Shown: in pieces, positions 51,952-52,553 of the stretch
Layout: every line of letters begins with the position of its first letter
How positions within the stretch are numbered: the stretch's first letter is position 1
Virus record (IMG/VR): IMGVR_UViG_3300006119_000827
Span: 1 to 52,949 of that record
Direction: 5' to 3' (one strand)
DNA from: a virus
Length of the DNA: 52,949 bases
Position numbers and translations under genes: made by a program
The notes under the pieces: generated by a model
The model's input: only the letters and a program-made list of their open reading frames with translations
Databases searched by the model: none
Told to the model about the DNA's origin: nothing

Positions 51952-52000
51952 GGTGCGAAAGTCCTTTCGGAGCTCGGGTTGAGGCCCCCCGTGGGCGGTC

Positions 52001-52033
52001 CGTGCGTAATCCGTGCGTAGTTCGTGCGTAGTT
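52001..52033. repeat. three tandem 11-bp direct repeats in the integrase leader
   Basis: Units at 52001-52011, 52012-52022 and 52023-52033: CGTGCGTA followed by ATC, GTT and GTT. Exact 11-bp period, so all lie on about the same helix face. They sit 50-82 nt before the integrase ATG, between it and its candidate promoter. Operator or arm-type integrase sites are the likely roles. Confidence 0.8.
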
Positions 52034-52050
52034 AGGGGGGTATTTCGGCC

Positions 52051-52079
52051 AATATCAGGTGGCGGAAGACCGCTGTCAA
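52051..52079 (-). promoter_or_regulatory. sigma70-like promoter for the integrase gene
   Basis: Minus strand TTGACA (52079-52074, perfect), 17-nt spacer, GATATT (52056-52051, 4/6). Transcription would start near 52044 and run through the 11-bp repeats. Confidence 0.45.
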
Positions 52080-52137
52080 ATCGGGTTTGGTGGGGTTGTA
52101 AGGTATTGGAAAGGTTCAGGAAAATACCCTTTATCAA

Positions 52138-52553
52138 CAGGTTGTGGATAACTCCCCAAAACCCGAGTGATCAGATTCCATAATCGCTTGAACTCCTGTG
52201 TAATATCAACGACTTAAGCGTGTTTTTGGGTAGCATATGCGTAGTCAGAGCCAATTTTCACAATATCCGGAATATAACACCTAATCAACACCTAAATAAC
52301 ACCCTAGCATACTTGCAATCTCCGTGGGTACTGCGATCAATGTGTTGCTGCCTTCGATCCACCACTCGAGAGGTTCCCCGCCATGAGTTCATGCCCTGTT
52401 CTACGCCCTTATTGCGACCGGAAATCCGTGACCTGTTTTATATTGTAAGGTTCGGGTTAGCCGCTGCGAGGGTGTGATGGTTTAATGTTATATTGGTGTA
52501 ATGTTGGTTTTTTGGGGTTCTATATTTCCAAGGTACCACAAAAAGCACCATAG
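52138..52553. other. gene-poor AT-rich segment upstream of the integrase
   Basis: About 400 bp with no convincing gene. It contains the second 11-bp repeat set, a partial direct repeat TTAATGTT/GTAATGTT (around 52484-52503) and T-rich runs. The frame at 52220-52477 lacks a Shine-Dalgarno and coding-like composition. An attachment site (attP) is most likely in or next to this segment, but its core cannot be read without the host sequence. Confidence 0.5.
52276..52308. repeat. three tandem 11-bp direct repeats, second set
   Basis: Units at 52276-52286, 52287-52297 and 52298-52308: AACACCTAATC, AACACCTAAAT and AACACCCTAGC. Same 11-bp period as the set at 52001 but a different sequence, 243 nt away, in AT-rich DNA. 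Candidate integrase arm sites or replication iterons. Confidence 0.8.

Follow-up and report, generated by a model that had tools for sequence, protein, structure and literature searches.

The attP of phage lambda contains integrase arm sites (P'1-P'3 and P1-P2), IHF sites (H1, H2, and H'), and excisionase sites (X1-X1.5-X2), and in the lambda excision complex the P arm is bent by three Xis subunits (PMC4880445). Excisionases typically bind direct repeats spaced one helix turn apart (PMC7498355). In attL-intS of the KplE1 prophage, negative autoregulation has been shown and the integration target is a tRNA (PMC2951348). No clear consensus motif has been found for RdfS, the winged-HTH directionality factor of the conjugative element ICEMlSym(R7A) (PMC11963761). 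Here, we analyzed a 52,949-nucleotide stretch of viral DNA (IMG/VR record IMGVR_UViG_3300006119_000827, positions 1 to 52,949), referred to as the window. The region around positions 51989-52308 is probably an attP, belonging to a temperate phage whose lambda-type integrase is a two-site-binding tyrosine recombinase, with one set of tandem repeats (set 1) as the P' arm; another (set 2) may be an array for an HTH protein. The arms, the IHF sites, and the approximate position of the core are supported by comparative evidence, and we infer the exact crossover, the attB, the autoregulation, and the ligand of set 2. The attP is new as an individual site, and the lambda type is a known kind.

The minus strand of the window encodes the integrase followed by an HTH_17 protein, and about 1 kb of non-coding DNA lies beyond the integrase start (Table 1). 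The integrase contains the catalytic R-K-H-R-H-Y set of tyrosine recombinases (R223, K251, H323, R326, H349, and Y358), the columns of which are invariant in 24 relatives. Its predicted structure (pLDDT of 87) matches lambda Int (1z1b) over its length; residues 2-42, modeled as three strands and a helix followed by a flexible linker, constitute a predicted N-terminal arm-binding domain. The HTH protein matches an excisionase/regulator entry of PHROG (3.5e-9). The ribonucleotide reductase small subunit is encoded beside these lysogeny genes (49176-50330), and its DNA is ~70% identical to that of Brevundimonas phages. The contig L002 is identical to the window over 45842-52949, and therefore gives no evidence of conservation, and extends 2,247 bases past the window end. 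The non-coding DNA in this extension contains several AGAACAT copies, some of them in tandem (positions 1269-1570 of L002). The relatives used for comparison are viral loci with integrases 39-46% identical to that of the window, among them nine close phages.

Table 1. Positions of genes and of predicted or candidate sites at the integrase end of the window.
Feature	Position	Strand	Basis or component sites
HTH_17 protein, 81 aa, candidate excisionase (recombination directionality factor)	50475..50720	-	Pfam HTH_17
Tyrosine integrase, 370 aa, predicted N-terminal arm-binding domain	50839..51951	-	Pfam Phage_integrase, 7e-20
Set 1, putative P' arm-type integrase sites	51989..52033	-	TACGCACGG 52000-52008, TACGCACGG 52011-52019, TACGCACGA 52022-52030
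Candidate int promoter	52051..52079	-	TTGACA-N17-GATATT; consensus scan, ~1 site expected by chance
IHF consensus site, candidate H'	52132..52144	+	perfect WATCAANNNNTTR
DnaA box, overlapping IHF site	52143..52151	-	perfect TTATCCACA; sequence match
Predicted attP core	52163..52187 (approx.)	-	TTATGGAATCTG at 52172-52183; placed by spacing from P arm
IHF consensus site, candidate H2	52204..52216	+	perfect WATCAANNNNTTR
Putative P arm-type pair, 11 bp apart	52225..52244	-	CTACGCATA 52236-52244, CTACCCAAA 52225-52233
Set 2, candidate excisionase sites	52276..52308	+	AACACCTAANN, two good copies and one degenerate; function putative

The three main units of set 1 (52001-52033), CGTGCGTAATC at 52001 and CGTGCGTAGTT at 52012 and 52023, repeat with a period of exactly 11 and give 20 of 22 self-matches. 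None of 3,000 dinucleotide-preserving shuffles of the 998-bp non-coding region reached at least 18 matches, so the tandem 11-bp repeats described in the initial annotation are real. An additional fourth copy, which is degenerate, is located at 51989-51999. The set 1 motif reads TACGCAC on the other strand, and this sequence is absent from the rest of the 53-kb window. Set 1 is about 50-80 bp from the int ATG and directly downstream of the candidate int promoter, and set 2 is ~200 bp upstream of the promoter, which is thus flanked by the two sets, as had been proposed. A TTGAC-type -35 element and a -10-like hexamer are present at a similar place in six relatives (L016, L017, L018, L177, L180, and L186). 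Reading set 1 as coding DNA of an int ORF extended to a TTG codon was rejected because the int genes of relatives begin at the corresponding ATG. Elsewhere in viral contigs, the set 1 motif occurs mostly in unrelated contexts. The exception is L259, in which a distantly related integrase is immediately preceded by TTACGCACGGATTACGCACGG (positions 319-338), a sequence closely resembling set 1.

The arm motifs of the window are TACGCACG, present three times near int, and TACGCATA and TACCCAAA at the distal P arm, where the second site is weak (TACCCA). Between the two clusters are the int promoter, the predicted core, and two perfect IHF sites 72 bp apart (shuffle p ~0.0006), which, as consensus matches, place candidate bending sites between the core and the arms. 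The initial annotation had proposed an attP and arm sites in set 1, and both are supported; it had missed the second cluster, the IHF sites, and the core.

Set 2 consists of AACACCTAATC at 52276, AACACCTAAAT at 52287, and AACACCCTAGC at 52298, with 16 of 22 self-matches at period 11. The repeat is only modestly significant, with shuffle p-values of 0.0013 at period 11, 0.0008 at the same period within the local 310 bp, and 0.013 over any period of 8-14. The three-fold tandem repeat claimed previously is retained, but its consensus AACACCTAANN does not fit the degenerate third copy: AACACCTAA is found in just two copies, and the third reads AACACCCTA. A one-mismatch IHF site (52283-52295) overlaps set 2.

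Set 2 is located beyond the P-arm integrase pair as seen from the core, and its direct repeats are spaced by one helix turn, the third of them degenerate. The chance that it is an excisionase array is about even, and the leading candidate for its ligand is the HTH protein, because the first matches of the HTH family profile in the PDB are RdfS (E = 0.002) and BldC (E = 0.008), and because each of the close relatives tested encodes a homologue shortly after int. With a somewhat smaller but still considerable probability, set 2 is instead an operator at which a phage repressor or early regulator controls a divergent rightward operon, unrelated to excision. Such an operator would suit the position of set 2 in the long intergenic region between the leftward int and the rightward genes visible in L002. 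It would also suit the scattered matches of the set 2 motif in viral contigs, at loci where no integrase was found, and the fact that most relatives do not have set 2. A one-turn repeat distal to the P arm is present in two of ten relatives, L016 and L180, and coding DNA occupies the corresponding place in several others, for example directly outside the P arm in L177. However, no promoter was recognized adjoining set 2, and its spacing, copy number, and place beside the P arm are like those of excisionase arrays.

The assignment of set 1 draws on the related phages. On the int strand, each of the nine close relatives carries sites spaced by roughly one helical turn immediately before the int ATG and a second pair of sites ~225-290 bp upstream of int; the distal pairs are spaced exactly 11 bp in all ten phages, the window included. 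In L017, the sites near int are TGCACACC, TGCACACG, and TGCACACA, and the distal pair consists of two copies of TGCACACA; CGCACA is common to both clusters of L181, and TGCACC occurs in both clusters of L018 and of L186. Distal regions matched the near-int motif of their own phage with a score of 11.4 of 12, compared to 9.9 for motifs swapped between phages (permutation p = 1e-4, a somewhat optimistic value because the near-int 8-mers were picked by eye before scoring). In a test that needs no chosen motif, a one-turn repeat was found at most 100 bp upstream of 70 of 121 non-redundant related integrases, against a background of 2% for shuffled sequences and 5% for real windows drawn at random. 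Related integrases thus adjoin equivalent repeats that have diverged in sequence, and such conservation was what the attP reading of the initial annotation called for.

Arm-type sites of one motif are located on both sides of the core according to this comparison, as distinct from footprinting. The simplest account of the motif co-variation and of the one-turn repeats upstream of related integrases would be that one protein, the integrase, reads both clusters and diverges together with int. It is quite unlikely that set 1 is instead an int promoter operator to which the HTH protein or another transcription regulator binds. Its position directly downstream of that promoter would be appropriate for an operator, and direct repeats with one-turn spacing can be bound by HTH regulators of this type (PMC5859096). 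In contrast, the set 1 motif recurs on the far side of the predicted core, in the distal P cluster and at a conserved distance, and co-varies in ten phages, a pattern that suits an integrase better than a promoter operator. The integrase and the HTH protein diverge together, and therefore co-variation alone cannot separate them. That both repeat sets are replication iterons of a plasmid-like origin is highly improbable, even though AT-rich DNA with a perfect DnaA box and IHF sites lies near them, because no plasmid initiator was found among the proteins scanned (part of the ORFs), set 1 follows the integrase phylogeny, and the arrays are short; this option, which the initial annotation raised for set 2, is not supported. 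Comparison alone can thus locate arm-type sites, which stand out as one-turn repeats next to int with a motif that co-varies with that of a cluster across the core; of the 121 related integrases examined, more than half have the same layout.

In the proposed mechanism, the N-terminal domain of the integrase would bind set 1 as three tandem P' arm sites, and the integrase would also bind the second pair in the P arm. DNA bending by IHF at 52132 and 52204 would enable the integrase to bridge the arm sites to the core and to recombine the core with the host attB. Since set 1 and the start of the int transcript overlap, the bound integrase would probably repress its own promoter. As a head-to-tail array on set 2, the HTH protein may give the P arm the shape needed in excision.

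In seven relatives (L015, L017, L018, L177, L178, L181, and L186), the DNA between the two clusters codes for the C-terminal end of the host xanthine phosphoribosyltransferase (gpt). The frame ends with PWD(M/L)G-A(F/Y)..P..stop or close to it, and its codons vary at third positions between phages. The degenerate peptide pattern matched one gene in 385 alphaproteobacterial genomes, which encodes xanthine phosphoribosyltransferase (NF006613, 6e-76; the 20-residue end of the E. coli homologue is not shown). The attP sites of these relatives apparently contain a substitute 3' end for gpt, and integration there would restore gpt. As no integrated copy was seen at gpt, we infer, rather than observe, that the relatives integrate at its 3' end, which is probable from the encoded peptide. 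The relatives thus point to the gpt 3' end as a phage attachment site, for which we found no prior report in the open-access literature.

The TGG codon of the core frame is 48-50 bp from the inner distal site in six relatives, as measured by hand, and the corresponding spacing of the predicted window core from the inner P site is 53 bp instead, a point against this placement. The predicted core is ~130-155 bp from set 1 and hence not far away, as an attP containing set 1 would have it. Its sequence TTATGGAATCTG resembles the core of the relatives but would not restore gpt. The window core is a prediction because its attB and a lysogen were not found. The core pattern with up to two mismatches was absent from 385 alphaproteobacterial genomes, a degenerate coding pattern for one core reading frame was absent from 115 genomes, and E. 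coli genomes gave just weak plasmid matches (E = 4); these negatives are weak because the host class is a guess. Among viral contigs, the exact core 18-mer was found only in the identical contig. A search for lysogens with close integrases returned four moderate matches in one order and, with a stricter cut-off, no match in the class. A tRNA target was rejected, since ARAGORN found no tRNA in the window and inspection of the core by eye showed no tRNA 3' end; Rfam gave no match. Many related integrases (L095-L174) belong to prophages at dusA, with GTGCACACGGA-GCGCACACG immediately before the int start, and a dusA core next to int is absent from positions 51952-52949 of the window.

Most close relatives combine TGCAC-type arms with a gpt 3' end, whereas the window has TACGCA arms and a core that would not restore gpt. 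The window may, tentatively, represent an integrase branch in which the arm motif and the target have both shifted and the excisionase array is positioned outside the P-arm sites.

A conserved non-coding element on the minus strand at 52530-52600 is composed of a GC-rich inverted repeat followed by TTTTnGGTACCTTnnAAATAy. Many relatives contain the element, and unrelated large phages have it without the hairpin. In the int-less relatives L291 and L294, an element of this type is 285 bp from the 3' end of the large terminase gene, which is 77% identical to that of the window.

The proposed window attP resembles that of lambda in that arm sites flank the core, IHF sites lie between it and the arms, the integrase fold matches over its length, and a candidate excisionase array of three units is present on the P arm (PMC4880445). 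It differs from lambda in the arm motif, in the HTH_17 type of its candidate excisionase, in the placement of the candidate array outside the P-arm integrase pair rather than between the pair and the core, and in the location of the attP upstream of int, because of which the window arms overlap the int promoter. Integrase sites also overlap the int promoter in KplE1 attL-intS, where this overlap is the basis of the negative autoregulation (PMC2951348), whereas autoregulation in the window is a conjecture. The related dusA-targeting integrases are ~35% identical to that of the window (PMC4482086). ICEMlSym(R7A), with IntS and RdfS, shares with the window five arm-type sites, an attP upstream of int, and a directionality factor of the winged-HTH kind, but it is a conjugative element with another motif, and rdfS is not beside intS (PMC11963761).
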